Source: Hydractinia symbiolongicarpus
Lineage: Eukaryota; Cnidaria; Hydrozoa; Anthoathecata; Hydractiniidae
Assembly: GCF_029227915.1 (NCBI RefSeq)
Contig: NC_079882.1
Span: 28,884,001-28,948,000, forward strand
Length of the DNA stretch: 64,000 nucleotides
Direction: 5' to 3'
Of this stretch, positions 17,121 through 45,938 are shown in pieces. The notes under the pieces are model-generated. The model had not been told where the DNA came from. It was given only the letters and a program-made list of their open reading frames with translations, and made no database searches. The stretch's first letter is position 1, and each line of letters starts with the position of its first letter. Position numbers and translations under genes: made by a program.

Positions 17121-17258
17121 ATCATATCATGTTTGGTTGCTGGCACACACGGGGCCATAATGACTATTACTTCGGTTTTGGGTTGAATAGGAGCCCTTAC
17201 GTAGGTTTCCTCGAAGAATCACCTGATACAAATGTGCCATACTATGGCTATATACTAG
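17121..17258 (+). CDS. Isolated exon candidate, phase 1-1, extracellular-looking
   Basis: A pyrimidine-rich acceptor ends at 17120, 138 bases stay open, and a consensus donor GTAAGT starts at 17259. The translation includes MFGCWHTRGHNDYYFGFGL and then SPDTNVPYYGYIL, an aromatic, secreted-looking composition with no known domain. Both borders are phase 1, the same as most exons of the FN3-channel gene. If spliced to the exon at 30162 it would read YGYIL-G-HNSKNF without a frame break. The intron would be 12.9 kb and contain the whole nested retrotransposon block. The exon shape is seen; membership of that gene is inference. Confidence 0.5.
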
Positions 17259-23300: not shown

Positions 23301-26300
23301 AATGTGATGGTAGGTTATCCCAAATCTTTGGTCCCAGGGCTGATAAGCTATTAGTTCCAAAAGTCGCGGTCCTTTTCCTTGAGACTACCAAATTATTTGT
23401 ATTTTGTTCTCTGACTATCCTACCGTTATCATTTAAACAAAATATATCTTTCATAAAAAGAGGGCTGCTGTTATTTATAGTTTTAGAGATTTCTATACAC
23501 AATGACCGTAAGCAATTTACATTCATGTGACTCTTGCTGGAATTTTTAAGTAAATTTTCGTATGTACTTACCGTATCATTATACAGAAATCTTAATGCTC
23601 GTTTTTGTATCATTTCGACTTTAGATAAAGATTTAGAAGAAGAAAAATGCCATATAAGGGAACAATAATTGAAATTTGCGTTGAACTAAAATATATTTTG
23701 CTTGAAAGGATAAGAAACTTCTAAATCGAAATAAGGCATTTAGTTGGGCTGATGCTTTGCGACACAAATCACTAACGTGTCTGTCAAAATTTAATTTATT
23801 GTCTATAGTCACACCTAGTAATTTCACGTTATTTTCACTTTCAATAGTTTTATTTCCTATATTAAATTTTAGACCTAAATTATCTGCCTTATTCTTTGTC
23901 AGAATTATCGAGTGAAACTTTTCAGGGTTTGCAATCATTTTATTCTCTTTTAACCAGGAGAGGGCAGTTTTAGCTTCGTTTTCTAAAGTATTTATCAAAT
24001 TAGGAATAGAATTTGAGAAGTTGGATATTGTGTTATCATCAGCGTAATTATGTAGCTTATATTTTTCTATAAAAAGAAACAAATTATTTATAAATATATT
24101 GAATATGATAGGTCCCAAAATAGAACCTTGTGATACACCAGATAAGATAATTTGAAATAGACTATAGATCCCATTTATTCGAGTGGCTTGCTATCAGTAA
24201 GATAAGATAGAATGAATTGAAGAGACTTATTGTCAAATCCATAAGCAGCTAATTTCGCAATTAGTAAGTCATGTGGTACACAGTCAAAAGCTTTTGAAAG
24301 ATCCATCAAGATCGCACCCACCACATAATTCTTATCAAGTTTACTCTTCCATTCCTCTATTAAGCGAATTAGTACTTGTTGGGTACTATAGCATTTCCTA
24401 TAGGCGGAGAGAAAGGTCGACAATTTTGATTCCATATAAGCGGTTATTTGTTCTTTCATAACCCTTTCGTAAAATTTAGAAAAAACATTTAAAACACTGA
24501 CAGGCCTGTAGTTTGATATTTTAGTTTTATCTTTTCCTCCCTTATCCAATGGCGTTACAGCAGCTCGCTTAGCTTTGCTTGGAAATTTGTTTGAAACTAT
24601 GCTACTATTTATAGCATCTGTTAGTGGCGTTACTAGGTGCCTTTTTGCTAATTTTGTCAGCTTTGATGGTATTGTATCTTCACCTGTTGATACTTTGGTG
24701 TTTAAATCATTAAACAGTTTAGAAATTGTATTTTCATCAACTTCTTGGAATGTAAAGTTCTCATTGTTGTTAGAATCATTGATTTCCTTTATTTTAATGA
24801 TACTTGGATGATTTTCAAAACTATCAACAATTTCTTCAATCATTTTTGACTTATCATTTACATTCTTATATTTTATAGGATTTGGTTTCATGCCACAAGA
24901 ATTTTCTAAAATATTGATGTAGTATTCGTTGAAAAGTTTGGTTAGCTGTTTTTTATCAGTAACTAAACTTTCATTTTGAACGATCGCTATATCTCCTTTG
25001 CTTATTCCACTTTTATTTGATATCAAGGGTTTAACAGTTTCCCAAAACGTTTTTTTGGAAATAAAACCTGATTCTGTTACCCTTTTGAAATGGTTTTTGA
25101 TAGCCTTTTTGCTTAAATTTACACACTTGTTTCTCTGTTTCTTGTACGTGATTTTGTTTTCAGAAGTAGGATTTTTATTGTATTTATTTTTGAACCTAGA
25201 CCTTGTATATATTGCCTTTTTTAACTCTTTTGTCATAAATGGTGCCTCGTTTCCACGCAGAATTTTTTGCTTCTGTGGGGCATGCTTTTCTATAATAGAT
25301 GTGAAAACATTGATGAGGTTTTCATAATTCAGTTCAGGATCTTTACTATTACAAATAAAATTTGCGTTCTCAACATCACGTAAAAAGTTGGCTTCATTAA
25401 AATTTTTGTAACTTCTGTAAATAATTTTTTTGGATGCTAAGCGTGCTAAATGAGATTTTAAAAATGTTGTTACCATTTGATGATGATCACTTAATCCTGT
25501 TTCACATGTTAGTGTGTGTTAAAAACATCTGGGTCTATTTGTAAGAATGACACCTATAGCTGTTCCGTTAGGACTAGCAAAACAGGTTTTGTTTTTGACA
25601 AGATTTTCAAGACTAAAAATATCACAGAAATTATTTAAGGTTTCGAAACCAGAATCGTTCGAGTTATGGCAATCGATATTTATATCACCCATAATTATTA
25701 TGTTTTCGACTTTAGATAGAGCTTTATTTAAAGCTATCTCTAATTCCTCAAAAAAGTTGTTTAAGTTTGAATAATGAGGTGGTCTATAAATACTGATAAC
25801 TGTCCATTTTTTATTTCTTATCGTTAATTCTGAGCAAATGATCTCATTATTTGTTATACCCAAATCATTAACTTGTCTACAGGCTATTCCTTTCTTAACA
25901 TATTCAATTAACCCTCCTCCATTTTTGTTCCTATCTTTTCTAGTTCTAATTTTATAGTTATCAATATAGAATTGTTCGTTTGGAAAACTCTCATCTAGTT
26001 TGGTTTCAGCAAATACAAAATAATCAGGTGAAAATTTTGTCAGAATTTCTCTTGCATCAATTATTTTGTTTCTGAGACTATTAATGTTTAAATAGCCTAA
26101 AAGAGGATTGGAAGGGTACTTAATTCGTAATTTATGTATTTCATCTAAAGAACTTTGGTGAGAATTATGTGTCTTTCCAGCAGAGCCGCTCGGCAAAATA
26201 AACATATTCCGTCTCCATTTGACCACTTCATCGTACGTAGCATTTAGGATAACTGTCAAATCATGGATCGTATGATGACCCCAAATTCCTTTAAAACGTA

Positions 26301-26688
26301 AAGATGATGGCACTGCTTTCGTCAAATCATCACCGTTGTAAAGCGCTGTAGTGGCTTCACTGTCGTTTCCGTTATCTTCCAAATTCTGTTTTAAATTAAA
26401 AACAGTGCAACTTCTCTGGTGGTTGTTAAGTCCAGACACGCTCTTTAATATTCGTCCACAACTATTACAGGTCCTATTAAAAATGCCTATATTAACTGCC
26501 GACTTCTGAATCTTTTCTGCATTATTGTTCGTATCTTTAAAAATAATATTCGTAGCCATTGTCTCAGTGTCATGAACGGAGGTGTTGTTGGAAGAATATT
26601 CCTCGACTGAGACGTTTAAGGTTGTAGAATCTTCTCTCGTTGTATATGCATTTTCCGCGGAAAAAAATTTCTTTATCATTTCATCCAT
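20396..26688 (-). pseudogene. Reverse transcriptase with C-terminal endonuclease-like region, copy 1, split by a LINE
   Basis: The N-terminal part (26688-26178) has a C2H2-like finger (CNSCGRIL...HQRSC) and the segment WGHHTIHDL...WRRNMFILPSGSAGK. The rest resumes at 23034 with KFIAECTRLIDSW, so the two halves join once the LINE is removed. The RT core runs to 21094, with LLVDASNAFNSLNR, a changed TTQEDP where the family has TTQGDP, and AYADD. After a stop, 21001-20396 holds the knuckle CACG...HALSC and the endonuclease-like region. That region lacks about 20 residues found in copy 2, including DVRVF. The copy is dead: insertion, stop, motif mutation and deletion. The family is a poly(A)-type non-LTR-like lineage abundant in cnidarians; I cannot name the clade. 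Confidence 0.8.
23040..26172 (-). mobile_element. APE-type LINE (jockey/CR1-like) inserted in copy 1
   Basis: The segments, in order on the minus strand, are as follows. An AP-endonuclease domain (26160-25519) with YLNINSLRNK, FVFAETKLD, ISIYRPP and IIMGDINID, followed after a frame break by SDHH. An RT (25476-24175 and 24118-23633) with ILMDLSKAFDCVPHDLL, GVSQGSILGPIIFNIFI and YADD. A C-terminal part (23613-23206) ending CNCDECKVPL. At least three breaks inactivate it. The 3' end carries GAAAAGAAAGAAAAG. CTTTC occurs on both sides (23035-23039 and 26173-26177), fitting a short target duplication. No ORF1 is present, so it is probably 5'-truncated. Confidence 0.85.
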
Positions 26689-27081
26689 GTCTAGTTGTCA
26701 AATCATTGGATCACTCAAATTTCTTTTGGTATATAATGAAAGAACACTTTAAATATTATATATCAGCAACAAAGTCTCTGAAAATAATCTAGTAATCTTG
26801 CGGCAGTGTTTCTTTACGTTTTAACGTCACGTCGCTGCATTACCAGATAAATTTTTCACTTCCGATTACAAATTCATATTCATGCATCCGCCATCATTAA
26901 TTTTTTTTTTTTTTTTACATTATATTATATTTAGAAATTATAAAATTACATAGTATCATCCGTTTATTCGGCTTGATACCTTGAAAATTCAAACATACGT
27001 TATTTTATATAATTTTGTTTTGGTCTATTTCTATAGCGAGAGACCGCCGATCAAAATATATAATATATAATGCTATTTCGG
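26689..27081. other. Junction of the two tandem retrotransposon copies
   Basis: It holds the 3' UTR of copy 2, ending in a poly(A) tract (T run at 26901-26916 on the plus strand), and then the 5' leader of copy 1 (about 26900-26689). The first bases after the tract include CCGCCATCATT, close to the YY1 motif that marks L1 5' ends. Confidence 0.6.
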
Positions 27082-29799
27082 CTATCGGAATTCCCTTATT
27101 TCCGATAGTGTGTTGGTCAAAGACATGTCGATATCAGATATGTTAACATCCCGCCGCAATGATCTTGATCCACGCAGGCATAGCAATGTCGATCGGAGTA
27201 ACGAAAAGCAAATTTTCGTTCTGACAAACGTCGTAGCGATAGACGTTGGTATACCACGTTTATCTGTTATCAACTCAGCAAGACGTTGATAGAATCTCTT
27301 GCATTCTCTTCCTAACCCACCGTGTGTAGAAAACACCAAAGGTGTAAAAGAACCATTTTCAACCTGCAAAACCCTTTCGTTGTATAACCTTTTCTTTTCT
27401 TGCTCATTTCTTTCATAGCAACGTTTGATTTCTGTGTTCCTATACCTCTGGGCGTTAAGGTCAAAGACCCTGACATCGCAGAATACCCGTTGGCCAGGAA
27501 TCCAAAAACCAAGTGCGCTAACATCTAATCGAGCTTCATTGGATGTGATCGCACTTTTCTGGTCAAAGCGTTCGTTTTGTAGTGGAGCAAGCATCGGTTC
27601 AATTCGTACGTCTTTACACACTTCTTTCAAAAGCTGAGCAGTTATATCACGAACTTCGTTATGACGTTGTGTGACAAACCCACCCTTTTTGCAGGATAAC
27701 GCATGAGCAAGATCAAACTTTGAGCCACATGCACATTCAAATGGTAACCTGGGTAATTCCCAGTTATATCGAATTCTCAATGCGTCGAAAAACTGCTCCT
27801 TTGTGAGGTAGTAACCACTCTCTTTTATTGGCAGAGTCGTCAACCATTTTGACGCACCTATTTCCTGATTTGCTTCGTTCTGCCTCTTAGCACTTTCATC
27901 CATTTGTGACAATAGTCCTTGCAGAATATTTTGATGGCTTTTATTTCTCTCAGACTTTATTTGGCTTTTCGTTTTGCTGATCTCGTTCGCATTTTCATTT
28001 TGTCTGAGAAGAATATTTACGAGCTCCGTCGTCATTTTCCGAGAATTCTCGTATTCTGTGTCAGAAACATTCTCAAGGATTTTTATTCCTAGACCCCCGA
28101 GACGTGGTGGCAAGGACATTAGCTCCCTCTCTACATCGTTTACAATATGACCACCAGTAATAGCCGGCAACAGTTGGTGTCTTATTACACTTTCCACTGG
28201 TCGCGATGATATTTCTGTGATGGTCCGTAAATAGTATGTGAAGCGATGTTGATATCCACTAACATAGCATGTGTAAGCTGCTTGTGGTTCGATAACAGCT
28301 ATTTCTGAAATTAGTGTGATTTCTTTCACCCATTTCGCGACAATGTCTTCAACGTACTCTTTTCGAAAAGTCTCACTGCCAATAACTGCTCCGAGATGTC
28401 GTTCTCCTGTACATGTAATTTGGATATTTGTTTCTTTGAAGTGTGTTTTTGCTCCTTCAATGTTCTTATCTTTCACAATTAGCCATGATTTCTTTAGCTG
28501 TGGTTGGTAACCAAATTTTGGGCCTTCCACAATGAGCTCGTCCCACCATTTCCGAATGGTGGAAAAATTTCCAACAGCTGTTAAGTCATCAGCAAAAGCT
28601 ACCAATTTCATATCCATATCAGCAATGTTTTTCATTCTATCAAGTAATGGTGTGAGTCCTATTGCGTAAATGGCCATCCCCAACGGGTCGCCTTGAGTGG
28701 TACCTTCTCTTAAACTCAGTTCAGTTCCACCAATCACAAAAAGTCTCGCAGGCTTTATGTAGCAGTTGTTGATGTATGTTGCTAGAATCGGGCAAATGAT
28801 CTTGGTATTATGAAGTGTTGCACTACGGTTCAAGCTATTGAAGGCATTTGCAGCATCAACTAATAAGACACATTCGGCTTCTTCACTAGAGTATGCATCT
28901 TTCATTGCATGTATAGCAGCTTCGCACCCAGATTCATGACCGGAGCACATTTGAATTTTTGAACAAGATTCAATAACATCATTCTTTGATGCGTGCATCA
29001 CGGCTTTTCCAATAATGCTTCTTAAAACCTCTCCTACTCCGATAGGTCTAAGACCAGGGTTCTTGTCTAAAGGCACAAGACGACATCCTAAATACGCGTC
29101 TAAAGAATTATCGTTTACTTCTTCATGGCAAAGTCTTCTTGCAAACTTAGCTATCGCTTTCCGTAAATCTGTTCCAGTGTCGCCATAAACTCTAGACGCT
29201 ATGATTTTGATCCATCCATTCGCATCCATTCCAGATGGTCCGGAGCCGTCTTTTGTTGTCTTCGCTGCTCGCATTATCATGTCTTCGTCAATGACGTCAT
29301 ATACAACGGCATTAACTGATTTGATCGGACCTTGTATCAGCGTGTCTTCGTATGATTCACTTCCTTCAGGATGTTTTTGTCTTAGCATTTCAAGAGTTTC
29401 GTCATTCAAAGGAAGTATTCCTCCAGACATATTGTTCGTCACCACATTAATCGCTTTATGAACATCTCCTTTTTGCATATGGTTCCGGAACTTCCTTGAA
29501 ATAACTGCAATATCTTGCTTTTTTATTACTTTAGGTAGTCGGCTTTAAATCGTCTGTGCCTCATCCATTAGGCTCATAAAATCTCCTTTAAACCATTGTG
29601 TTAGACGTCTGTTTAATGCTTCTACGTGCTCCTTAGATTTCGATGCTTGTGATGGTTTTTGCAGCAGCAGAGCAGGCATGATATGTATAGCTTTTAATGC
29701 TATAGCTCTTAAAGGTGTGTTTTCAATCCACGCATTGAGCAATCTTGTGGTCTCACGTATGTAGGATATATGTATGTAGGATATGTAGGACGCCATCAT
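27082..29799 (-). pseudogene. Reverse transcriptase with zinc knuckle and endonuclease-like region, copy 2
   Basis: An 84-residue frame (29799-29545) and a 798-residue frame (29478-27082) are the same reading frame, separated by one TAA at 29545-29547 and a short uncalled stretch. The RT motifs are intact in appearance: LLVDAANAFNSLNR, EGTTQGDPLGMAIYA and FADDLTAVG. Downstream are a knuckle CACGSKFDLAHALSC, RHNEVRD, and an endonuclease-like region with ARLDVSALGFW, VFCDVRVFDL and YN. It resembles the restriction-like endonucleases of R2-type LINEs. The N-terminal finger and WG region of copy 1 are missing. The first residues are encoded by short ATATGTAGG repeats. It is nearly intact but 5'-truncated. 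Confidence 0.8.
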
Positions 29800-30161: not shown

Positions 30162-30332
30162 GACATAATAGCAAGAATTTTATCATATCCACTTCAAGTG
30201 CGTGTCATTATTCACAATGTGGTACTGGTGTATTAGTATATACACACAATTGTGAAGTCAACTATCCTTTATGGAAAGACAGTTTTTGTCCTCGATACAG
30301 TAATGGCACATGTATCGAGAAAGAATGTCCAT
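30162..30332 (+). other. TSP1-like cysteine-rich exon
   Basis: The exon is phase 1-1. It encodes SACHYSQCGTGVLVYTHNC, then FCPRYSNGTC and KECP. The spacing C-x3-C-G-x-G, a later C, C-x-G-like NGTC and a final CP resembles a thrombospondin type-1 repeat, but the usual Trp residues are absent. It could be another small disulfide domain. It is the most N-terminal piece linked with certainty to the FN3 array. Confidence 0.5.
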
Positions 30333-33300
30333 GTGAGTATTAATTACAATTATCTCCTATTGTGTTTTACTTAGACAATAGTACATATCTAAATGTTCTA
30401 GTTGATGAACCTCAAAATCTACAAGTGTTAAGCACTGGTCAATATAACATTCACATTGAATGGGATTCTTATGACTTAAGCAGCTTGTATTCGCAAGGCA
30501 GTTTCATTCTTATCGTAAGAGCATATGACAGTGACAATGTGTTGGTTGCTTCCCATCATATATCGAGAGGAAGCACTCAATATAACTTTGGTGGACTTAA
30601 TATATTTTCAAACTATACTTTGAGCGTAGAGGGATATTCCCATCTTGGAAAAGTTAGAGGAAATGCAACAAAAATCTCTTCAAGAACTAAACAAGGAGGT
30701 AATATTTATTTAAATATATTTCCAGCAATTTTGCCTAACGGTAAACTTTATACTCCAGTTGTTAAATCATTACCTTAGTTAACTAAGCTTGTTTGAGGAT
30801 GATAAAATTAGTTTCATTTATACATAGCCAACGTGGCTAAATTTTACTCTTTTAAGTAATAGAGGAATTAATTATGTTACTTGGAGTGAGTGAGGCCATC
30901 CGCTTTTCAAAACTTGAGGAAAAACTTGCAATAAAGATCACGTGAACAAAGAACAATAAAAGAAACCAAGCCCTGTCATATTCTGACTGTAGAAAGTTCA
31001 TTTGCAACCCCAAGTAATTTTTCTTCCCTCAACTATTTCAATTATGTAATAAGAAAATTATGCTAAGGTCTTCTGGCTATAAAATCATTGTAATAAAATA
31101 TTCATAAGTCTCCTTCGTTCTTCCATTGATCGCGTGATCAGTGACGCTTAAGTAAGGAATACCACAAAAATGTGTTAAAAGGTGAATAAAAATTTCTAAG
31201 TTAACACTTACCATACATTCCCTAACAGAATGGAAGTAAGGTGCTAGTTTGAGGGAAGTGATTTTTGTTAGAACTTCTTGACCTTAAACTCTAGTGAACA
31301 AGTTAGGAACAAAAACACTTGGGCTTGAAACACTTTTGACTTAACTTGGGATATTTTTCAAGCAAAAATACATTTTTTTATATTTACGCGGCAGCAAACA
31401 TGACAAGAAACCAAAACGCGTTTAGCTACATCACTCATTCCCTTCAAAAATAGGTTTATTATTTTTAAAAAATTGTGAAAATTATTGTTGCAATTGATCA
31501 TTTTTTATTGATTCGGCCTGAATTTTCTATTTAGGTAGACTCAACCCAATAACATTAAATTAGGTCACTAATATTCCATCTTTCTTTATATATAAATATA
31601 TATCTTTTCATTGATTTTTTAGTCCCAAATGGTGCAGCATCGTTTATATTTGCAGAGCCCTATAATTCATCCTGCATGGAATTAAAATGGGAGCATATTC
31701 CAGAAGAGAATGTATTGGGTTATCTTCGGAGTTATGAACTTAAGTATTCTCTTTGGCCTCCTTCAAATTATGTATTTGTTGAAACAGGATTGGTTAATGA
31801 ATATTTGGTCTGCGGATTAGATCCTTTCAGTGATTACAGATTTGAATTACGAGCAAGAAATGATGATTATCTTTCAAATATATACGACCAAATTGAAAAC
31901 AAAACAGGAGAAGCAGGTTAGTGGTTGCTCGAGATTATTAAACTGAAAGCATTAATATTATTGTGCGTCCTTGACAAGCATTTTATATTTGTTGTAGAAC
32001 CGTCAACAGCTCCTGCTATCCAATCAACCACGAATTCAAGTAACACATCCATTTTAATCAAATGGAATAGTGTTGAACTACCAGAATGGAATGGCGTTCC
32101 ATACCTATATTACGTTTTCTACAGTTTAAATGGAACACAGTCATTTCAAAATATGACAGTAGATGCTCCAAATACAGAAGCAAATATTGTTGATTTGTTT
32201 AGCTACACTCTGTATGATTTCCAGGTTGCGGCAGCAACTAGGGCTGGGATTGGACCTAGGAGCAGCATTGTGACAGAAATAACTGGAGAGCATTGTATGA
32301 ACTTCTTTAACTAAGTTTTGTATTTCCATTCAATGTCAACATTGTACACAGTGTCTGTAAATAAAAAAATCTTGACTAAGAAAGGTTCTGTAGTCGAACT
32401 TTAACTATATATAGCTGTTGAACTTTAACTAATATATATATAGCTTTTTTTTATCATAGTACCACTGAGTCCACCTCTCAATGTAACAGGTGAAGACATT
32501 AATGAAACAAGCATAATTGTTCATTGGCTAGAAGTTCCAGAGAGATTACGCAAGGGAATAATTATTGGCTATAATGTTACATGTTATTCCAGCAACTTGA
32601 CGGAAATTATTCAAATCATCCAAATCAATAATGGATCACAACTTGCAACAAACATACACAATTTAACATCATTTACTTGGTATGCTGTGACTGTCACTGC
32701 ATTCACATCTGTAGGTGCTGGTCCGGAAAGTAACGCAACATTAATTCAAAGTGGTATTGGACGTAAGGAAAATAAATTATATGCATAATTTTACTTGTTT
32801 TTACAACCTGCTTTTCTGTCAATGCACTCTCTCTACATCTCGAACTAAAAGTTATCCAGAAAATGTTTCTGAAGTAAAGTGTAAGAGTTAGCTAAAAGTA
32901 CGAAAAATTACCAATGCATGTGTTTTAAGTTGGAGATAGTTTCAGTGTATACGTTTGTAAAGAAAAAGACAATTTTTTACTCATATGCACTTTATTTTTA
33001 GCACCGGATGGATATCCCTTGCATATTTCGGGATATAACATGTCTTCAACATCTATTTTTGTACGATGGGATAATATTTCATTTGATCAGTGGAATGGTG
33101 CATCAGATGGATTTACTCTTCATATCTCACCTCCCGACATTCCTGGTGGTGAAAGAAGCTATCATAGGTAAATTATCGCAGCATATAATTCCTAGATGCT
33201 AATAACGATGTAATTGCTAATTGGTACCTTTTTTTTTCTTTTTGTTTCAGAAGTATAACATCTGCTGTAATTGCAAATTTGGAAGAATTCACACATTACA

Positions 33301-36300
33301 ATATAAGGATTAAATGTTACAATGAAAAAGGATCAGGACCAAAATCACCAGCTGTGACAATCTTAACGGATCAATCCAGTATTAAATTTACTTTCTCTAT
33401 TACTTTCAGACTATTTAAGAAACTTTAATCCTCTTTAATTTCTGATTTTTTTTATAGTTCCTCTAAAGTTTAAAAAAAATGTGTGGGGATATGACACTGG
33501 TTCTTACTCACTTAAAGTTAAATGGAACGAAGAAACAAATGTAAGAGAATGGCTTGGTTATCCATACCAATACCATGTGTACTATCGTCGTGTTGGAAAG
33601 TCGGAATTTACTGACCACATAATTGTTAATGCAAGCACTTATGAAGTTGAAATTGATGATTTGGAAGGTTACAGAGAATATGAAGTAGCTGTTGCAGCGG
33701 CAACAACAATTGGTGTTGGAGCATACAGCGATATTGAAATAATAAAGACTGGAGAAGCTCGTAAGAAAAAAGTTAATTTATTTTGATGAATTTTAATGCG
33801 TTTCCTAGCTAGCAATAACATTTCTTCTTTTAAAGCTCCTACTGGACCGCCTCAAAATGTTACTGGTGCGTACAATAATTCCCGTAGCATTTATGTCAAC
33901 TGGACCGAGCTCATTGAAGAAGATACGCGTGGAATTATCACTAAATATTTAACCATTTGTATTACATTGGATGAAGTTGAAATGGGAAGGCAAAACATCT
34001 CAAGTAACGATGAACTAACTACCATATTTGGAGGGCTTGAAATATATACACCATATCTAGTTACTATTGCTGCATACACTGTTGCTGGCCTTGGACCTTT
34101 TAGTGATCCAATCACTGTTTGGACAGATGCAGAAGGTAAACAGCAAATAGAAAAGCTAAGCTTAACCCTCTTTTCTCAAATAAGAATTAATATGAACCAA
34201 AATGTTGAACCAACAATTGACCAAATTTTAAGTAAATGTGCAGTTGTCTCCTCATAGCTAATGTTCTTTTTAGCGTATCCTCACCTATAAATTTCTATTT
34301 TTCAGCACCATTTAGAGGGCCTTATAATCTCACGGGTTACAACACAAGTTCGACATCGATCTACATTGAATGGAATGACATATACGATATAGAATGGGCT
34401 GGAGTTGTTGGGGATTTTAGGTTGACTATCCAACCTGTTGACAATCCAACGGACAAAAATACCACAAATATAACACGAAAAGGGTTAGTGTGTGTTAAGC
34501 TTACAAAGAAATAATTAGTTTATCTTTCTGTAAAGTACCAATTAGACAAATTTATATTCCTTTTTCTGATTTAACCAATACAGTATGACTCTTTTTAGTA
34601 ACGAAAAAACATTTAGCTACGAAGCGAAGGATCTGAAGTTTTTTACTATCTATCGGATTGAAGTTACGTGTTTTAACTTTAAAGGAGTGTCACCTGTTTC
34701 TAATATTACTGTAACAACCGAAGAATCATGTAAGTTCAGCATATATTTATTCATTAAAACGCTGTCCTACATTAGATTCCGCTCTGGATGTTCCAAGTGC
34801 TCCATTTGGAGGAACTTTTCGAAGAGTAGTTTACTTGGAGCATTTAGAGCAATTCGTACTAATAATTGCACTGACTACAGTCATAAGCCTCCTTGTTCTA
34901 AAAACCTATTTCTTTGGCACAATATTTTTTCGCTGGTAAAACTCTTGCAGTGAGAAACTATTATGAACACTTTGCATAAATAAAAAGCCACGGGAGTGGC
35001 AACTTAATTATGCCCAAAAGCAGGACAGCTTTCATTATAAATTAACTATCCAAGTCTTACCAGATATGTCTCAGATTTAACAACTACACACACGATTTCC
35101 AACACATAGTTTCAAGCTTTGTCTATTGGACTTCATTACATTCAACTGTGGAGTGCTCTGAAGTGAACGTTTTGGCCAAAAACATTCTAGCCCAGCCAGC
35201 TCAGGGACTTTCTTCTTACTTTAAGGAGTACTTTTTGTTTGTAGCAGACTATGCAAAGATCATGTTAATACTGTATTTCCATTAGTTAAAAAAATGAAAG
35301 AAAGCATTCTTATTGGTTTCTCAAAACCCCGCAATATCTGAGGCACTGGTTGAATGGACTAGCAACCCTACGCGTCCAGGCTCCGCGCTATCTCTATTTG
35401 TATATCATCAGGCGATATTAAGGATTTCTCCTTACATGGCAGAAATCAACAAGGTTTAACCAAAATTAAAAGTAATGTCATTTATAACACTCATGCCGTG
35501 AATGGAGATGATTACAAAACTACAGTTTGTATTTACAGTGTATATGGGGGGAAATGATGTAGCTGGAGAACTACGATAGATGCAAGCGCCATAATATGAC
35601 CTGTATGTTCATATCAGATTAAGATTTCGGAGCACTTAGTAACAGTGCTGTGCCGTTTTTAGAAAGAAATATCCCCTAACTCAAACTTTCCTTAGTATGT
35701 CCAATTTTTTTAGTTTGTTTAAACTTGTTACCGTATTTACTTTAGGGTCAATTATTTCTCCCCCAAACCTACAGGCTGTGGCTACAGGGTATAATAATAT
35801 AAGCATTTCATGGGAGCTTCCTGACGAAACAAAAATTCCAGGCATTATAAGAGGTTACACTGTGAGGTTGCAAGCGATATATAGAGCTGAAGATTTGACA
35901 ATTGGAACGTACTCAACACGACAACGAAGAGATGCATCAAGTGCACTCTGTGTGGAGGGACAGTACTGTGATGGATTGCCGATGGAGATGTAGATATTTT
36001 TTATTTTTTTCACAAGTACTTTAATATGATATATAACACAAAGAGTTTATATATTAAAAAATGACCAATACGTGCCTTATTTTTGCCGCACCATAGTTTT
36101 TTTATGCTCCTATGCTTCAGAACTTTAACAGAAAACATATAGAACAAAAATAAAACATTTAGGTTAGAGGAATGAAATCACTATGAAAAAATTCATAAGG
36201 TATACTTGCCTTTAAAACAATAGAAGTAAAAACTATAAGTAAAAATTGGTTGACATCCACGTATGTTTTCTTCTGTATTCTCAAGTCAGTTATTTCAGAT

Positions 36301-39300
36301 TAGTTAACCTGTGATAGCTAGTCGTGCGCGCTGTGATGGATGAATTTATGTGGACTTTTTCGATAGCTTGCTACTAATTTAAGGTATTTGCACTGTGAAC
36401 CTGAGAATAAATCTATTCGCGTATTAGTTTTGTAAAGAAAAGATATTTTTACTTTTGTTGCGCTCACTTGATTAGTAATTTATTTTTAACTTTCCCATAG
36501 GGACAACATCACTGTTCCTGGTACTAGTACTGTAAGCTTCAACACTACTGGATTGCGTGGCTATACATTCTATAATATCAGTCTTTCTGTTGATACGAAA
36601 TTTATTGGTCTGGCTAGTCCACCTATTCAAATTTTTACGCCTGAAGGAAGTAAGTATTAAATAATGTGTCAGGTTTCTATATGTTGAATACGTCGCAGAG
36701 ATGTGCTGTTTAATGATTCTTCCTGCTTTTCGGTAATTTATCCTTGCCAATAATAGGTGATTTCTAGGATGAAAGGCTATATAGTAATAAACTCGTGCAT
36801 AAACCGTTAACTTTTAGCACCATCGATGTCTGCTTACAATTTTACCTGCGAAGGAGTGAGTTACAGTTCACTTCTACTGCAATGGAAACACTCTCCTCCT
36901 GCTTATTTGGAAGGTATTCGAACAAAATATATGATTTACTACCAACTTGGCAATAAAATAGTCAATGAAACTGATGAACCATATAAAAGAAGAATGGAGT
37001 TATTTTTCTTGAAAGCAAACACACAATACACGGTTTGGATGACAGCTTTTACCAGTGTGGGGGAAGGAAAGCCAACTGAAAAGTTAAACTGTTCAACGTT
37101 TGAGACAGGTAAGAATCTAATTTTAAAGTATGACTGATGAATTTGCAACATGACTAAAAAATTTTACTCTATAAAATTAGGTAAGGAAGCGTTTTAAAAA
37201 AGGAAACATTTAATCAGATTTATTTTATTATTACACATTTTGGTTAACTCTGATATTTATTTTATTTTTAATATAATGTGTATTAACTTTTCATTATCCA
37301 GGGTTTCGCGGAATTTGTGTCAAATTAAGTTCTCATTATTGGCACTAATATTTGTTTAAAATGATGTATGTCTCAATTTATTTATTTATTATTTTTTTTA
37401 ATGAATACATTGACATTACAACACTATCCGCTAGAAAATTTAAAATTAATAAGTATGTAAATTAAAAACAGGCTTAAAATAAGTGAAAAAAAGACAAATG
37501 ACAAAAACCGAAAGCAAATATATGCAAGTTATGTATTATACTAGTTAGAGATATCCACAGAAATTTCCCCAAGCTTGGTTCTGACTACGGGCTAATGATA
37601 AGCTAACCATAGTGTGCATGGTGTTAGCTGTTTTCAATTCTTAAGCTACAGCTATCTCACGTTTTCATTTCACTGTCACATTGCGAGGCATCGTTAGCTC
37701 TTTTGCAGCCGAAACAAATATTATTGCCAATTAACACTTTCCATTTACGATAAATTCAAGAGAATTAGCAGTCTTTCTTTTTGTATTTCCTATCCGTCTT
37801 GTCAAAAACAAAATTTTAGAATGACCTTTTACAACGATCCATACTACTATATTTAAAAACATAAATCCATACTACTATATATAATCCATACTCTACTATA
37901 TTTAAAAACATAAATCGCTTGTAGCACGATTTTTTGCCGGCTGCCTTTATAGATTGCTGAAAGTCAGATAAGTCTGCCGATTTATCAAAACTAGTCGATG
38001 TCTTGTGGAAAAATCCAAGGGTTCGCCTGTCCTATTTATATCGCATTGCACGTGTCTCGCTACTTGCAGTACCATATATAGATATTTTGATAATTTTTTT
38101 TCGGCTAACGACTGCTGCAGCGAGTTCAAGCTAAGCAGATATTTTTATGTTCACACTATGGGCTAAGGTCTCTAGCGAAAATTATATATATTTTTGGAGT
38201 AGATGGACTTTTCTTCAGCTCTAAATACAGTTTTTGTTCCTGAATTAGGTTTTGGATACGTGCTTGTTCTTTCAACCAAACATTATATAGCAAAATGAAG
38301 TAGTACGACAACACGTTTGTAGTATTCAATGTTCAGGCAGAGATAACAAAATTACCACAATTATAGAATTTTTAACTGAAATTTGTGAACTTGCTCTGCA
38401 ATAAAGAACCGCTGATAAAAATTAATTTTGCTCTTTAAAACTTCTGTACATAACTGAAAGTAACTAACCTGCACCAAAACTATCTCGTATGCCTTGATTT
38501 TCCCATTCTATATTGCGTATTTATTATTTAAAAAATTGTGGTACTATCAGTAAAAACGTCTATTGCGCAAGGACTTTTTCAAAATTTCTTTTATTCGTAA
38601 GTTTTAAATTTGTTTAGAACCCACTGCAGCTCCTTCTAATGTACGTGCATCTAGTTTCCATTATCCATATGCAAGCTTAATTCAATGGGAACATATACCA
38701 GATGATCAATGGCAAGGATCTAAACAAGGATATACTATCTTCTATGAAAAGTTATCTACCGGTGAAGTCGATGTTGATGATGGATGGATAAAAGCTACAA
38801 GAGTCGATGTCCCTTTAACAACTTCTTATGTTCTCGAAGGTTTAGAATTGTATAGTGTTTACAGAGTTCGTGTAGCTGCAAGAAGTAATGCAGGTGTTGG
38901 TTTTAAAAGCGATCCAGTTCGACTTGGTGAGTTACAAGTTATATTAAAAAAACTTCTGACTATTTCATTTTATTTTATTTCGTTTGATTTGATTTTACTT
39001 TATTTTACGTTTACAGCGCATTTTAAACTTTTCACACTTAGAAACATGCCATGTTCCACAAGCAAAGTTGATTCTCAATTACATGGTATATCCTCCCTAT
39101 GTTGATTATCCAAAAGGTAACAATTTGCGTCCAGAAGGTATTGTAATGGATTTAACTGAACAAATGCTGCTGACATGTGCTCACAATTGCACTTCATTCA
39201 ATCAAAGTGTTTACATCTCTTACAATCGCGTCGATTTGGACTCGTTCAGTGATATAAAGAATTTTACGGTAAATGGCACTGCATTGCAAGTTCCGAGGTT

Positions 39301-42300
39301 GGACACCGGAAAGTTTACACCCCATTACTCTCTTGTTGTTACTACAACCAGTCCTGGATTTATCATTCTTGAAGTTCCTGATAGTCCTGCACAGGCCTCT
39401 GCAAAAGTTGAAGATGGATTACTTGATGGGATATTTTCCACGCTGCCTATATGTGCTCTATATTTTATTCTCAATTGGTTCTTTGGAGCAATGTTTTGGT
39501 TTTGTGTAAGTCTAGTTAATTTTTTATGCACTTTAAGAGCATGAGCATGGATAAAAATAAAATATTTCATATCTTTAACTTAAAAACTGCTGACATAAAC
39601 AGAACGAATCACGAGACTATAGCGGTATCTATGAAAAAAATAAATGCTCTATATCACTTCTTATTCACTTATAATTGAATTATATTTATATTTGGCATGA
39701 CTTTTTAAGTAATTTAGGTAATTTATAAGACGTGTAAATAGCTGGTTACGTAATCAAAATATTTCGAAACTTTTACGATTATCTTAAGGAATACTTGTTC
39801 CATATTGTCAAAATGAAATAATTTGATGGTAAAGTAGTCGATTACAAAACAGAATATGGGGAGTTGTATGAACCAGAGAAAAATCTGCTATAAGAATTAA
39901 AATATTTAAAATGGTTAAAGATTAAATCCTTTATTAGATAAATTAAACTTAACTTAAATGTCAAAAATGCTTTGATAATAAAATCATTTTTTGTGCAACA
40001 ACTATTTCCCCATGAGAAAATCCACTTACACCTATCATAAATATCACATACACTCAGGCTTATCGTATTATTTATAGACGATAACGAAACTTAACTCATT
40101 ATTCTTTAGGAACCAACAAAAGTCGAACACAAAGGTCGTGGAATGTCACTTGCTGGAATATTTGAAGGTTTATATTTGGCTATTATGACAAGCACCACTG
40201 TTGGGTCAGTTCTTGTTGTTATTTTTATTGTTTTTGTTGTTGTTTTTTGTTGTTTCCTTTTTGTGTTAATTATTTTTCCAAAGCATCATAAGTTTTAAAT
40301 TAAAGGGGATGAAACACTTAAGCTTGGTTTCCAGTGGTTTACTAACATAAAATAACATGAATTAATTTTTAAACATAATTTCTTACTTCATTTTAGACCA
40401 CAGTGAAAATATGTTAAATTTCTGTTATTTCAAAATCACCTTCTTATTATTTCATGAAATAACGTGAACTTGACATACCAAGTTCACGTTTATTTAATAA
40501 GATAATAAACGTTGAATGTATACGGATATTTTCATGCGAATGTGCAGTGTGAGAATTTGTAAAATAAAGACATTTCAAAAATCAATTTTTAAGGTTAAAA
40601 ATTGAAATTTTATGCTCTTTTTTTTAATTTAAAGTGGTAGAGCGCTTACTACTAGTGTGGGACGTCTTGGGTTCAAACCCAGGCCGAGTCTTGCCAGAGA
40701 CTATAAAAGTGTATATCTATTATTTTTCGTTAGAGTTCAGCATGAGAATAGGATTGATATCTTAGGCGGTTGTCTAGTTGAGCGATTGCTGTGCTTGCAC
40801 GACTTTCGTAGCTCAAATGGGAGATTCAAATGCACTACAACCCCCTTCGCAGGACCCTTGTTGATAGCAGTATCAATAGGAACTGCAGAGCCTATCCTGG
40901 GTAAAAAAATTCAATAAACTGAAACATGACTACCTCGTTTCTTAACAGAATTTAGAAAAGACAATGGTACTCCCTTATTTTACTTTTTTGAAAATGATTT
41001 TTATCAGGACTGAAGGTGAGAAAGTTGGTATGGCTATATTTTGCTTAGGTCTGCAAAAATTGTGCTCAAAAACAAGCGAAAAATTGATGTGTGATAATAC
41101 CTGTGGATGTTTCCATGGGTACCAACTATTTTAATTGAAATTCAATTCTATTTTTTTTTTTTTTTTCATATTTTCAACAAGGACAACATTATCAGCCTTT
41201 TTCAAAAATGCCATGCCTTTGTTGGTTCTCTTACCGGGAAATAATATTTATCCTCAGTTGAAATGCAAAGTTTAATTGGTGAAACTTTCGCGAGAGAAAC
41301 TTTCTCGAATTCGCGATTTTTCGCCATTTTCGCGAAAGTTTATCTCGTGAAAATGTGCGAGTTTCTTCATTCGCGAAACTTTATCTCGCGAAAGTTTCGA
41401 ATTTTTTCATTCGCGAAAGTTTACCCAGTAAGCTATTTTATCTTTTTTTTCACCAAAAACGCACAAAATACTTAGAAATCTTATTTCAAGAAAGAAAATT
41501 TATAACATTTCTAAGACTTTTTAGGTTTTTTCTAACTGAAAAATCCTTGTTCGCAAAAGTTTATCTCGCAAAAATGTGCGGGTTTCTGCATTCGCGAAAG
41601 TTAATCTCCCGAAATATTCCGAATTTCTTCATTCGCGAAAGTTTATCCAAAAAATTTCATAATTTTTTTTTTTTTTTTTTTTTTTTGCGAAAGTTTCTCC
41701 AAATAAATTAATCGATTAGATAAACATTTGGTAAACGAAATTTCGCGAAATAAGGCTTCTTCCAGCGAAATATTTTGATTAGATTTTCCGCGAAATAAAT
41801 TTTGCGATCGTTAAATTTTCCTCCAAATCAATTTTATCCTTATTGAGGTTCCGTGCGAAAATTGATAACCAATTCTTTGAAACGATCCAAAAAAACCTGT
41901 TTTTATCGTTTTGATGTTGTTAATATTTTCATACTTATTTGGACAAATAATATGCAACACTATAAACTATCACTATAGCCTATTGTAAAAGTTGCGTCTA
42001 GCACAAAATTTAAAACATTCCATTGCAGATAGTTATTTATTTTAATTTTGCGATATTTTGATTTGCAAAAGTTGCTTCCTCTAAGATAGACCAAATCTAG
42101 GCAAAGTTCAGTTGTCACTACTAATGATAACAACGAGAGAGAGAAATGTAAAACCTATCAAAAAGGTGTTTGACAATAGGTTTATGTAGTCTGTGTGCCA
42201 TGCAAATGAGATGTAGTCTTTATTCTTTAAAAATAGCGAAAATTATATGTACTTTTTACCTCTTAATCAAAAGCGAAATAAAATAATACGTAAAATTCTT

Positions 42301-45300
42301 TTTATTAAGATACGGTGATAAGATACCTGAGACTACATCAGGACGTATATACATTGTGTTTTGGACACTTCTTGGTTTGGTGTTAACTGGAATTGTTACT
42401 GGTAGTCTTTCGTCAGCATTGTCAGTGGCTTCAATTAATTCAATGAAGCAAAACCTCCCTGATGATAAGGTAATGTCTTTATGAGTTCTGAAAAACTGTG
42501 TTTCTGTCGTTGCATAAATAACTGAATCAGGTTTGAGGTCATTCACCATGTTTCTTTGCTAGAAAATCAAATCTTGTTGCTATATATATTGCTTAAATTT
42601 GAATCGAAGTAGTATAATCTTTGTTAGCAAAATAAACAGAACATAAACAATTTTGTAACGCATTGACTGACCGATTTAAACAAATTTATTTCTTTGCAAT
42701 CCTAATACAAAAGAAGAATGCTTTAATCCCACTTATATAATTTATTTTATCCCACTAATATAATTCCTTGAATACCATGCCATGGATCCATAGTTGGAAC
42801 CTCTTTACAAAGGAGAGGAGGGGGTTTCGTCTTTCCGAAATTAAAAATAGAGGGGCTTGAAATTTAACAGTAAAAAGGGTGGGGTGAATCAAAATAGGGG
42901 TAACCTTACCCCTCTGGCAGCTATGGCTAGCTATGTTTACAAAAATGTAAAAAAAAATTAGCAAAAAGCTACTTCAATGGGATTAATATTCGCGGTTTAG
43001 CTTATATGCGAAATTTTTGCATTTCGCGGGGACTTTTTTTCGCGGATGAGGGATGATTTAATTTTTCGCGGGGACGTAATTTCGCGGATAAGGTCATAAT
43101 AGCAATTTTTGAAAAAAGTAAAATAAATATCTCTAAAGGGTTTGGGCCGAATGGCACTATCTTACACCAGTCAATTCTACACTGACCGAGACAAAATGTA
43201 GTATTGCATTTTACTTCAACTAAACGTCAGGTAGAATAAACACAACTAGATAAAAAACGAAATGAAATTCTAATTGAATTCAAAAAAAGTTGATTCTTCA
43301 TCCGTTACATCTACTACTACTATTTCACTTCGTGGGGTGTGAGTTCAATTGTTCATCCGTAAGGCTGGAAAGAGAACTCAAATTCGGTTCATCATCTGCA
43401 ATAGAAGCTGGGAGCAAAGGATTAATATCCTTGAAAGGGTCAACTGATTCGAGACCTTTGTCAGTTTTCCCTCCTCTTTTCATCTTTAGTACTCGGTTGA
43501 TTAATTAAGCCTACAAAAAAGGAAGCCTCAGACTTTAAAAATAAATAAAAACAAAAATATAAAATTTCGCGGATCAATTTATATGTTCAGAATCCAAAGT
43601 AGCTTTTATACACTCTCGGCACTCTCGGATAGTTTAACAGTCAATATCTCGAATACGCTTGTTGCTCTCTTGAACCCCCACTCGCCATTTCCATACAAAA
43701 AACTCGTTATAGCTCAAAATATGAAAACTACATCTCATCATCTTAAACAAGTTTGTTACCCCTTGATAAATTTCTCTGTAACTTAAACCAGTCCCAACAT
43801 CTTCGAGATTTTTGAATAGAATTTTAACATTCGAATGTTTTCGATTTACAGTAGACTCTCGATATAACGAACCCTCAAGGGAAATGGAAAAAAGTTCGTT
43901 ATATCGAGGGTTCTTTATATCGACAGATCAGAAAAAATGAAAATTTTTTCCCAATATTCTCAAAATCGCTTAAATTTTTGTCCATTAGAAGAACTTGGAT
44001 GAAAAACACTTTTTATTAATCGACTTATTATTAATCGACTTTTTTGAACAGAAATGCCAAAACAATTCTGACCTGATTATAGTTTTTAGACTTCTCGGCA
44101 GGTCGAACTCTTTTTTTTAAAGATCCCATAAGACTTATCGGGAGTCAACTGTAGGTGCAAGCTCTAATTCAAAGTTTTTTTCTGTTCACTGAGCTCAAAA
44201 TTAACCATGAAAAGCTATAATGAACTGTATACAACAGTTAAAGATTCCTAACTATTTCTTCATATTAGTGATTTTTTAAATTTAACAGTAATACCGCTTG
44301 AAAAGTCAGTGGTCAGCTTCATACCTATAAATTAGCTGGTTTCATAAATAGTTTAAAAAAGACCATAGTATCTTAAGGGAGGAAATTATTTACCTTATGG
44401 TAGTTAGATTATTGTTATTACTTCTTATTTATATCCTCACATTCCTGTTTTTTTTTAAAAAATAGATGTTAGCATTGTATGGCAGCGCAGAATATACATA
44501 CGGCAAAAAAAGGATTAAGAAATTTGAGAAAAGTAAGTCATTTGTATTATTATTTTTTGTAAAGTTATGGAAAACCGTATAAGGTAAAACATGTAGCAGA
44601 ACGTTATTTTATCGTCATCCCAATTGGCACAATTTAGAAAACTTATCAAGTTAACCATGTGCGAAATTTGATATCAGACAAATGTAAAATGCAGTTGAGT
44701 TGTATTGTACCTCTTTTCTAGACGTTACTTACTACTCATACGAAGAACTTTTTGAACCATTGAAAAACAAAACTGTGAAATATGCATTACTGGATCGATA
44801 TGTTGCTGAAATTCTAAAAAGCAATATTTCTGCTTATGGTTTGACTGTTAATAAAGCTTTTGATGAACCAACTGATTTTGGCGTAGCTGCATTTGGTGAG
44901 ATGGAAAAATTGAAAGTTTGTGGGACAAAATTTGCAAAGGCGAACACAGACCTGACCTCCAAAGCTATTTCAAAGCTTCTACAGGTAATATTCTATATCC
45001 TCTTCCTTAACTTTACACACATTTTTTTCCTGTAAATTATAATTTTCACTTCGTTATACATAGGAAATTAAAAAATCGATTGAAATTAAGAAAGCAAACG
45101 GAACGGCTGAAACATCAAGTGAAACAACCACTGCAACAGAAGGGGAACAGGATATCATCAGCTTCAATGCACCATTATATCAAAAAACGCTACGTATAGT
45201 GCTCATAATGTGGTTGGTGTTTATAGTCATTGGATTGATCTATGAAGCGATCAGAAGAAACAAGTTAGCGAAATTGAAACGTAAAATTTACACCAACAAA

Positions 45301-45938
45301 GGTACGTTTTTTTCGCCTTTGAACTATTATATAATTTGAATTCATGATGACTTTTGTACCGAAGTTAATGTATATAAATCTGTTTGAGTCGAAGTTTACC
45401 TTCTCAATCCTTTAGAGCAATTCATTATTTTTTCCACACATTGCTTGTCGTCACGACCGATTCATGTTTCTCCTTCCCTATTTCCCTAAAAGAGTTGTTC
45501 TTTAGCGATAATATAGTTTTTTTAAATTAAACTAAGAAAATGTGAAGACTTATCGGAGCAATATAAAAAATTGAGGCTGGTATTATCAATTCTTTTATAG
45601 AATGCAAGCTTCAATTCCACAAAGAGCTGAAAGAATTTGCAAATGAAACTATCGAAGAATTCCGTGATTTGGTCGAACGAGTTGAAGATAAAATCGAAAG
45701 GCTTAATTACAAACACGGAAAAGAATTGCTAAAGATGCGAACAGCTATGTCAAAGAAGTATGGTGTCAACTTTAAGTTTGTGAAACCAAGCGAGTTAGGT
45801 GTATCATTGGAAAAGATTTTAGAATACAAGGAGGATGTAAAGAATAGACCGAAAGTACCATTCTCGGTTAAAATGAGAAGAATTGGAGTAACTATTAGTG
45901 GTGTATTTTCGCGCATCACTCGACTTTTCAAACGCTAA
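30162..45938 (+). CDS. FN3-repeat, K+-filter ionotropic-receptor-like channel (5' incomplete)
   Basis: There are 22 exons: 30162-30332, 30402-30698, 31623-31916, 31998-32294, 32460-32762, 33002-33167, 33251-33378, 33458-33760, 33836-34135, 34306-34483, 34584-34729, 35746-35962, 36501-36649, 36818-37108, 38618-38926, 39042-39505, 40110-40204, 42310-42469, 44466-44532, 44722-44984, 45064-45301 and 45601-45938 (stop TAA). They join in frame to about 1,723 residues. The order is a TSP1-like cysteine exon, eleven FN3 domains, an S1-like lobe, TM1, a pore loop with TVGYG, TM3, an S2-like lobe, TM4 and a cytoplasmic tail. It should sit in the plasma membrane and pass K+. GluR0 of cyanobacteria and a rotifer receptor (AvGluR1) also pair receptor lobes with this filter, but I know of none with FN3 repeats. 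The donor at 35962 is weak. The start codon and signal peptide are not seen. Confidence 0.85.
30402..38926 (+). other. Eleven fibronectin type III domains
   Basis: The domains are encoded by exons 30402, 31623, 31998, 32460, 33002+33251, 33458, 33836, 34306+34584, 35746+36501, 36818 and 38618. Each has the conserved Trp of strand B (for example HIEWDS, LIKWNS, VNWTEL, SISWEL, LIQWEHIP) and a Tyr/aromatic plus 'AATxxGxGxxS' end (VAAATRAGIGPRS, ITVWT). Eight are single phase 1-1 exons and three are split by one phase-2 intron, the classic FN3 exon pattern. Many NXT/NXS sites fit an extracellular array. The ninth contains RQRRD, a possible basic cleavage site. It is likely an adhesive or spacer ectodomain; ligands are unknown. 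Confidence 0.9.
37841..37918. repeat. Short tandem duplication in an FN3 intron
   Basis: CCATACTACTATATTTAAAA and ACATAAAT are present twice with a shorter partial copy between them. It lies in the 1.5-kb intron 37109-38617 and looks like local slippage. Confidence 0.8.
39042..39505 (+). other. S1-like ligand-binding lobe and first transmembrane helix
   Basis: A phase-1 acceptor at 39041 follows a pyrimidine tract. The exon begins ETCHVPQAKLILNYM and has PPYVDYPKGN...EGIVMDL, matching the 'PPYV...GxxxDL' start of periplasmic-binding-protein-like receptor lobes. It ends with the hydrophobic helix FSTLPICALYFILNWFFGA. The S1 part is short (about 115 residues), and the usual 'TxxR' ligand-binding Arg segment is not recognisable; the corresponding place reads HYSLVVTTTSPGFIILE. 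Ligand identity, or whether a ligand is bound at all, is therefore open. Confidence 0.75.
40622..40915 (+). repeat. tRNA-derived SINE in the filter intron
   Basis: AGTGGTAGAGCGCTTACTA resembles a pol III A box and GGGTTCAAACCCAGG, about 30 bases later, a B box. A non-tRNA body follows, ending in CCCCCTTCGCAGGACC and an AAAAAAATTCAATAAACTG tail. A 3' fragment of the same family lies at 8130-8228. The plus-strand frame 40657-40917 is spurious. Confidence 0.8.
41280..41700. repeat. TTCGCGAAAGTTTATCTCGCG array in the filter intron
   Basis: Degenerate units of about 45-60 bases carry TTCGCGAAAGTTTATCTCGC followed by GAAA and an AATTTTTTC or GTTTCTTC spacer. CpG and the TCGCGA palindrome are dense in an AT-rich setting. 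It is closed by a 22-base T run (about 41667-41688). Confidence 0.85.
42985..43080. repeat. TTTCGCGG dispersed repeat
   Basis: TATTCGCGG, ATTTCGCGGGGAC, TTTTTCGCGGATGAG and AATTTCGCGGATAAGG follow one another. The same TTCGCGG words recur at 43563, 54399-54500, 55065-55130 and 63948-63972, so this is a dispersed family in the window. Confidence 0.75.
43849..44151. mobile_element. pogo-like MITE, TA-flanked
   Basis: The left end CAGTAGACTCTCGATATAAC and the right end GGGAGTCAACTG (reverse complement CAGTTGACTCCCGATAAGTC) are inverted relatives. TA stands on each side (43847-43848 and 44152-44153). The internal CGTTATATCGAGGGTTC is typical of pogo/Tigger termini as I recall them. The 303-bp element has no coding capacity and sits in the intron 42470-44465 of the channel gene. 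Confidence 0.8.
44466..45301 (+). other. S2-like lobe and last transmembrane helix
   Basis: Exons 44466-44532, 44722-44984 and 45064-45301 encode MLALYGSAEYTYGKKR, then YYSYEELFEPLKNKTVKYAL and LDRYVAEIL, then DFGVAAFG. The order 'SYEELxxxLKxxxVxAxLxDxxVAxxL...xGxA' is the S2 lobe of bacterial and receptor-type binding domains. A linker rich in Thr and Glu leads to the final helix RIVLIMWLVFIVIGLIYEAI, after which basic residues (RRNKLAKLKRK) mark the cytoplasmic side. Confidence 0.8.
45601..45938 (+). other. Cytoplasmic coiled-coil-like, basic tail
   Basis: The last exon begins CKLQFHKELKEFANETIEEF and goes on with charged heptad-like sequence (LVERVEDKIERLNYKHGKEL), then a basic C-terminus (RITRLFKR). 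It could mediate oligomer assembly or anchoring. I see no named domain. The stop codon is at 45936-45938. Confidence 0.65.

Follow-up and report, generated by a model that had tools for sequence, protein, structure and literature searches.

A predicted one-chromosome family of FN3-stalked, glutamate-receptor-like channels with a K+ filter in Hydractinia symbiolongicarpus

The window analysed here is a 64 kb stretch of Hydractinia symbiolongicarpus DNA (C8:28884001-28948000; G+C content 33.7%, no N), and the genome with which it was compared comprises 480.9 Mb in 76 contigs. Its forward strand carries a gene, designated P1, in which an extracellular array of fibronectin type III (FN3) domains is predicted to run directly into a channel core with a K+-type selectivity filter. 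Scripted splicing of the 22 exons between 30162 and 45938 found AG acceptors at 22 of 22 sites and GT donors at 21 of 21, with consistent phases and a frame free of stops for 1741 residues up to a stop codon at 45938; the in-frame path that an initial annotation had traced, from a cysteine-rich exon through eleven FN3 domains to a core with TVGYG, is thus borne out. The junction between the FN3 array and S1 (S1 and S2 being the lobes of a putative ligand-binding domain) was also placed correctly there, with 38926 as the last base of exon 15 and 39042 as the first of exon 16, joined in phase 1 across an intron of 115 bases. The parts of P1 are given below in window positions, with TM for transmembrane segment, P for pore, dN/dS for the ratio of nonsynonymous to synonymous rates, and P2 to P6 for related genes on the same contig, C8.

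30162..30332, forward: exon 1, TSP1-like cysteine module, with matches in P2, P3 and P4
30375..37108, forward: exons 2-14, FN3 domains 1-10, mostly phase 1 modules (splicing, Pfam fn3)
38618..38926, forward: exon 15, FN3 domain 11, leaving in phase 1 (splicing, Pfam; dN/dS 0.18 against P3)
38927..39041, forward: fusion intron, 115 bases, phase 1, two bases ahead of a Thr codon, with position and phase common to P2-P5 and the distant P6
39042..39505, forward: exon 16, S1 lobe and TM1, the latter at about 39413-39505 (splicing, hydropathy)
40110..40204, forward: exon 17, TM1-P loop with the pore helix as far as TVG, a phase 2 intron splitting the first Gly codon of GYG
42310..42469, forward: exon 18, filter YGD and TM3 (VFWTLLGLVLTGIVTGSLSSAL), with Ion_trans_2 at residues 1344-1424 (also hydropathy)
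44466..44984, forward: exons 19-20, S2 lobe, including the conserved acidic residue of KYALLD (splicing, family alignment)
45064..45301, forward: exon 21, S2-TM4 linker and TM4, the latter at about 45169-45261 (splicing, hydropathy)
45601..45938, forward: exon 22, stop codon and C-terminal tail, the latter predicted to be cytoplasmic (splicing)

In the 1741-residue model, Pfam recognised 11 fn3 stretches (1.8e-86) and, over the pore with its filter TVGYGD, Ion_trans_2 (E 6.9e-12). A 19-residue hydropathy scan found only three membrane segments (residues 1325-1356, 1397-1429 and 1586-1616), all in the last third of the model, and the P loop with TVGYG (residue 1385) lies between the first two; the K+-channel filter and the segment order of ionotropic glutamate receptors (iGluRs) proposed in the initial annotation are therefore both present. 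The single P loop and three membrane segments depart from the K2P and voltage-gated layouts, as they do, despite the FN3 array, from that of a single-pass FN3 adhesion receptor. The cysteine-rich exon also stands where it had been placed, and its identity can be refined: the window copy has no Pfam match, and its counterpart in P3 reaches TSP_1 at E 0.0073, below the cut-off, which suggests a TSP1-like module. An ANF_receptor-type amino-terminal domain directly before S1 is typical of animal iGluRs; in P1 this place is taken by FN3, and Pfam found no domain of that type in the 1741-residue model or in two further upstream exons (X1 and X2, below), the far N-terminus lying outside both.

Rather than the single gene of the initial annotation, P1 is a member of a one-chromosome family of channels predicted to combine an FN3/TSP1 stalk, a K+ filter and a glutamate-receptor-like core, whose other members are as follows.

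C8:28793172-28808593, opposite to P1: P2, an inverted and almost identical copy in which all 22 exons are intact
C8:27808215-27817341, reverse: P3, a diverged paralogue
C8:27875728-27889730, reverse: P4, a diverged paralogue
about C8:27912061-27928169, reverse: P5, a diverged paralogue
around C8:27654775-27664711: P6 (L016, L017), a distant member found by tblastn and the family profile
C8:25025598-25029362: P7, channel matches with adjoining FN3 places, known from matches only

P2 retains every acceptor (22) and every donor (21), differs from P1 by one in-frame exon indel of 3 bases, and has no premature stop. Similarity between the two copies reaches 94-97% in the longest aligned blocks and falls to 79% in others, and they lie inverted about 105 kb apart, as might be expected of a pseudogene or of a recent duplication that is an assembly artefact; this explanation is nevertheless most improbable, given the intact frames, dN/dS well below 1 and the many intron gap events. 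These number 90, 70 of them not multiples of three, a count that is inflated because introns 9, 14, 16, 17 and 18, where 19-44% of the aligned sites differ, probably hold unrelated insertions. Further evidence against decay comes from the diverged paralogues, whose channel modules are free of stops up to the tail end. In P3, P4 and P5, exon 3 and exons 8-22 are retained in the same order, and the sequences most like exons 4-7 belong to other exons; in P5, exon 8 occurs twice and exons 1 and 2 lack a good match. FN3 exon content differs among the paralogues. The FN3/S1 intron measures 76, 3539 and 491 bases in P3, P4 and P5, respectively, and is in phase 1 in all members read (P1-P6). Identity to the five other members P2-P5 and P7 is 69-99% for exon 16 and 58-95% for exon 22.

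Substitution rates between P1 and P2, calculated according to Nei-Gojobori, gave dS 0.048, dN 0.012 and dN/dS 0.24 (Fisher p 3e-12 on rounded counts), with 0.26 for the FN3 part and 0.14 for the channel module. No nonsynonymous change was found in S1 or in TM1-P-TM3, and in S2 the only change is a nonsynonymous one; exon 1 (0.52) and the TM4 part (0.82) appear looser, each on few sites. In exons aligned without gaps, spanning FN3 and channel, dN/dS to P1 was 0.10 for P3 (six exons) and 0.20 for both P4 and P5 (five each). These estimates indicate that the FN3 half and the channel half are both under purifying selection.

The distant member P6 scored 27.4 bits (pore exon) and 19.2 bits (S2 exon) with the family profile. 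Its ectodomain mixes FN3 and TSP1 modules with one unassigned exon, the scanned exons matching TSP_1 (1.8e-11, 1.2e-11 and 1.4e-6) and fn3 (3.7e-11, and 0.0012, which is below the cut-off), and its pore reads TTLGYGD (Ion_trans_2, 1e-13). The S1, S2 and TM4 pieces were assigned by place and by eye, S1 and S2 having no relevant Pfam match, and a frame change splits S1 between two frames. By eye, the intron between FN3 and S1 is in phase 1 and sits, like that of P1, two bases ahead of Thr-Cys, and the filter is cut by the same phase 2 intron (GG|A); with these two introns common to P6 and P1, an independent fusion is unlikely.

This conservation bears on the reading that a gene for an FN3 adhesion protein and an adjacent one for a K+-filter receptor were merged by eye. 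A separate FN3 product is conceivable, since exon 15 read without splicing (window 38608-39105) stays open to 39105 and its T-rich intron codes for a hydrophobic stretch; an intron-retaining, channel-less product of P1 itself is conceivable on the same sequence. Two genes are, however, very improbable, in agreement with the initial annotation, because only 115 bases separate the halves, the phase 1 junction recurs in P2, P3-P5 and the distant P6, and purifying selection acts on both sides of it. In addition, the frame of exon 16 has no Met before its residue 15, and hence no start or signal peptide, whereas the stalk-less relative L037 (below) has, by eye, a signal-peptide-like start of its own. 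P1 is almost certainly a real chimeric gene, with an FN3 ectodomain and a channel core.

Relatives of the core that lack the stalk occur elsewhere in the genome. In a search with the P1 channel module (E 0.001, best 80 of 126 candidates scored), at least 65 genome places were matched, at least 38 on C8 and at least 27 on other contigs, P6 being outside this match list and found by other searches. At 25 of the places not on C8, of which there are at least 27, the match falls within an open frame of 283-529 residues, 23 of these frames having at least 420; frames of this length fit whole receptors, and the set is probably intronless. None of the best 150 of 501 FN3 candidates falls within 1 Mb of any of these 27 places. 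Eight of them are clustered on C13, at 7.74-7.85 Mb. Two were read.

C13:7828839-7829318: L037, one open frame of 457 residues
C4:24856335-24856826: L038, whose frame holds TM1 onwards

By eye, L037 has a signal-peptide-like start, S1, TM1, TTVGYGD, TM3, S2 and TM4. Both relatives share with P1 the TTVGYGD filter, the order TM1-P-TM3-S2 and TM4 (and S1 in the case of L037), and differ from it in the single open frame, the absence of an FN3 stalk and, in L037, the start of its own. The profile of the FN3 family matches L038 and L037 over TM1 to S2 at 66 and 61 bits, respectively.

The orientation of the core was approached through glycosylation motifs and charges. N-glycosylation motifs are in excess in the ectodomain (36 against a shuffled expectation of 13.4), in S1 (4 against 1.2, P 0.017) and in S2 (4 against 1.4, P 0.035), and none occurs from TM1 to TM3 (0.2 expected); after TM4, Lys and Arg number 9 and Asp and Glu 1. 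The excess in S1 and S2, together with the charges after TM4, points to an inverted, iGluR-like P loop, with S1 and S2 predicted outside, the tail inside and the P loop entering from the cytoplasm. TVGYG is invariant in all four aligned family members, and the Q/R/N-site P loop is absent, TVGYG standing instead; GIVTGSLSSAL occupies the place of SYTANLAAF, the M3 motif of animal iGluRs.

Several comparisons suggest kinship with glutamate receptors. The Pfam model Lig_chan remains below threshold in the full P1 model (E 0.0055) and, at 21.4 and 20.9 bits, in the trimmed core of P1 and in P6, against a cut-off of 30.8; a plain bacterial K+ channel scores 12.1, and the relatives L037 and L038 score 24.6 (below) and 37.5 (above), respectively. 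With the FN3 family alone, profile alignment to GluA2 by hhalign scored 28.6, covering the pore, TM3 and the first part of S2; with L037 and L038 added, the score was 38.6, over the pore and TM3. None of 20 shuffles scored above 21.2, and one bacterial K+ channel (L001), a thin channel control, reached 21.0. In a second local alignment, S1 starts in register with GluA2 (18.3-19.3). By eye, PPYVDYP..NLRPEGIVMDL resembles the start of S1 in GluA2, and KYALLD in S2 resembles KYAYLLE of GluA2, its acid standing, in this alignment, at the place of the ligand-binding Glu. Scans of genome contigs for receptor relatives found none, the sole match being L001, the plain bacterial K+ channel used as control.

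Other results weigh against a receptor of this type. The probabilities that hhalign itself assigns to the two GluA2 alignments are low (6.7% and 44.7%), and the S1 score was exceeded by one of the 20 shuffles (21.2). S1 and S2, whole or in parts, gave no ligand-binding-domain match in Pfam or PDB sequence searches, the structure model of S1 as a single exon is unusable (mean pLDDT 39), and the Arg that binds the ligand carboxylate in iGluRs has no clear equivalent in S1 by eye. Among the 60 of 257 PDB matches listed for the family profile, only K+-channel-type pores appear and no iGluR, and a positive-inside bias is not clearly evident in the short loops flanking the P loop. The best PDB matches are TOK and TASK pores for P1, and TOK and prokaryotic voltage-gated K+ channel pores for the family profile; together with the low GluA2 probabilities, these would suit an ordinary K+ pore of the K2P or TOK kind, in normal orientation and with unrelated flanks. 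Such a core is improbable, since the glycosylation motifs argue for an external S1 and S2 and hence for an inverted P loop, there are a single P loop and three membrane segments, the GluA2 similarity extends beyond the pore across TM3 to S2 and exceeds that of 20 shuffles and one K+ channel, and L038, from the same genome, passes the Lig_chan cut-off and matches the family profile. A K2P origin of the pore was likewise set aside, the TOK and TASK pores scoring best but by few bits over other K+ channels; an intron inside GYG in K2P genes, on which a literature search returned nothing, is kept as a lead only. The moderate similarity from pore to S2 argues, with moderate confidence, for a glutamate-receptor-like core in P1, with a putative ligand-binding domain.

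The protein extends beyond the exons of the model. The initial annotation had let the gene begin at 30162; its frame and stop hold, whereas 30162 must be an internal exon because exons 1 and 2 contain no Met, and two further exons lie upstream of it. Features of the region before exon 1, and those of two paralogues, are the following.

17121..17258, forward: exon X2, coding, phase 1-1, joining in frame to the 30162 exon (splice sites and phase)
20396..29544, reverse: LINE-type retrotransposon frames for reverse transcriptase and endonuclease, lying in the intron of 12.9 kb that separates X2 from exon 1
C8:27893475-27893711, upstream of P4: SUEL lectin exon (profile search)
C8:27929991-27930221, upstream of P5: SUEL lectin exon (profile search)

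In comparisons with the upstream DNA of the paralogues, identity to X2 over the matched stretch was 69.6% in P2, 51.5% in P3 and 42.4% in P4. X1, a conserved exon that leaves in phase 1, lies 337-616 bases before the window start (L036:9385-9664). X1 and X2 together have no Pfam match, and the start codon of P1 was not found. P4 and P5 have, further upstream, a signal-peptide-like exon and the SUEL lectin exon (SUEL_Lectin, E 1.6e-20 in P4); an N-terminal SUEL lectin in P1 was considered and rejected, no SUEL place lying near P1, P2, P3 or P7 (102 genome matches, 117 of 117 candidates scored). Of the six frames scanned in the intron before exon 1, four matched RVT_1 (one below the cut-off), one Exo_endo_phos and one nothing. 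The intron between exons 17 and 18 contains, by eye, a repeat stretch with units like TTCGCGAAAGTTTATC (window 41290-41690), and frames with TNP-like transposase domains (PF21787, PF21788) lie on the reverse strand at window 49350-51055. Rfam, at gathering scores, gave no match across the window.

Taken as a whole, the sequence evidence points, with a probability of roughly 0.6, to P1 encoding a ligand-gated, K+-selective, hyperpolarising receptor of iGluR topology on an FN3/TSP1-like stalk. Its predicted layout is (X domain)-TSP1-like-11 FN3-S1-TM1-P-TM3-S2-TM4-tail. Four subunits would form an inverted K+ pore, as is held for GluR0 and AvGluR1; the S1/S2 clamshell would bind a small extracellular ligand, probably amino-acid-like, and, once occupied, would pull TM3 open, so that K+ would leave and the cell would hyperpolarise. 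The stalk may position or tether the receptor at cell-cell or cell-matrix contacts, and a role of the FN3/TSP1-like stalk in adhesion is a tentative suggestion, less likely than its alternatives. It is also possible, though rather unlikely, that ligand gating has been lost. The K+ pore would then conduct constitutively, or respond to force or contact transmitted by the FN3 stalk, with S1 and S2 as mere linkers. The divergence of S1 and S2, matched by no library, would fit such a channel, as would the length of the stalk and its variable exon content among paralogues, as a tether might show; the lack of nonsynonymous P1-P2 changes in S1 and TM1-P-TM3 argues against it, as does the KYALLD acid, invariant in the four aligned members though replaced by Asn in L037 and L038.

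The closest described systems are K+-filter receptors. GluR0 of Synechocystis and the other Group 1 prokaryotic iGluRs have the order S1-M1-P-M2-S2 and a K+ filter, TXVGYG, and GluR0 shares with P1 this order of S1, pore and S2; it has only two membrane segments, whereas P1 has three, and the prokaryotic iGluRs are reported to have been found by recognisable glutamate-binding domains, none of which is recognised in P1 (PMC2950845, PMC12332018). AvGluR1 of the rotifer Adineta vaga is, like P1, an animal protein with eukaryotic iGluR architecture and a K+-channel filter, and is the sole animal K+-selective glutamate receptor named in the excerpted source; P1 carries a TSP1-like module and 11 FN3 domains before S1, and the excerpted description of AvGluR1 mentions no FN3/TSP1 stalk (PMC12332018). 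AMPA, kainate, NMDA and epsilon iGluRs share the segment order, with pore-TM3-S2 similarity of P1 to GluA2, but have a Q/R/N-site pore instead of a K+ filter (PMC12226733, PMC6307864, in part). GluATCV, a GluA1 engineered to carry a viral K+ pore, is reported to work as a glutamate-regulated K+ channel, and the ligand-binding domain on an inverted K+ pore that it combines is predicted in P1; GluATCV is synthetic, P1 a member of a natural, stalked family (PMC12332018, in part). Among the openly licensed PMC papers listed (in two sets, 15 of 922 and 15 of 115), none reports, as judged by title or start of abstract, FN3 joined to an iGluR or a K+-filter receptor. As judged from these descriptions, the P1 family is set apart from known K+-filter iGluRs by its FN3/TSP1-like stalk.

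K+-selective glutamate receptors are presumed to connect K+ channels with the glutamate receptors of synapses, and an intact gene family in what may serve as a laboratory animal, Hydractinia, would allow the K+-selective state to be studied in vivo. It would also demonstrate that an adhesion stalk can drive the receptor core or park it, and the differences in FN3 exon content between close copies amount to a natural experiment on stalk length. That a cnidarian-type lineage built multigene adhesion receptors with an inverted, ligand- or contact-gated K+ channel as their signalling end is a speculative extension, doubtful at present. If true, it would mean fast inhibitory, hyperpolarising contact sensing by K+-selective kin of glutamate receptors and not by chloride channels, and a multigene class beside the large genomic stock of probably intronless, minimal K+-filter glutamate-receptor relatives; the combination of FN3 and channel could let a cell contact or a small molecule switch the cell off.

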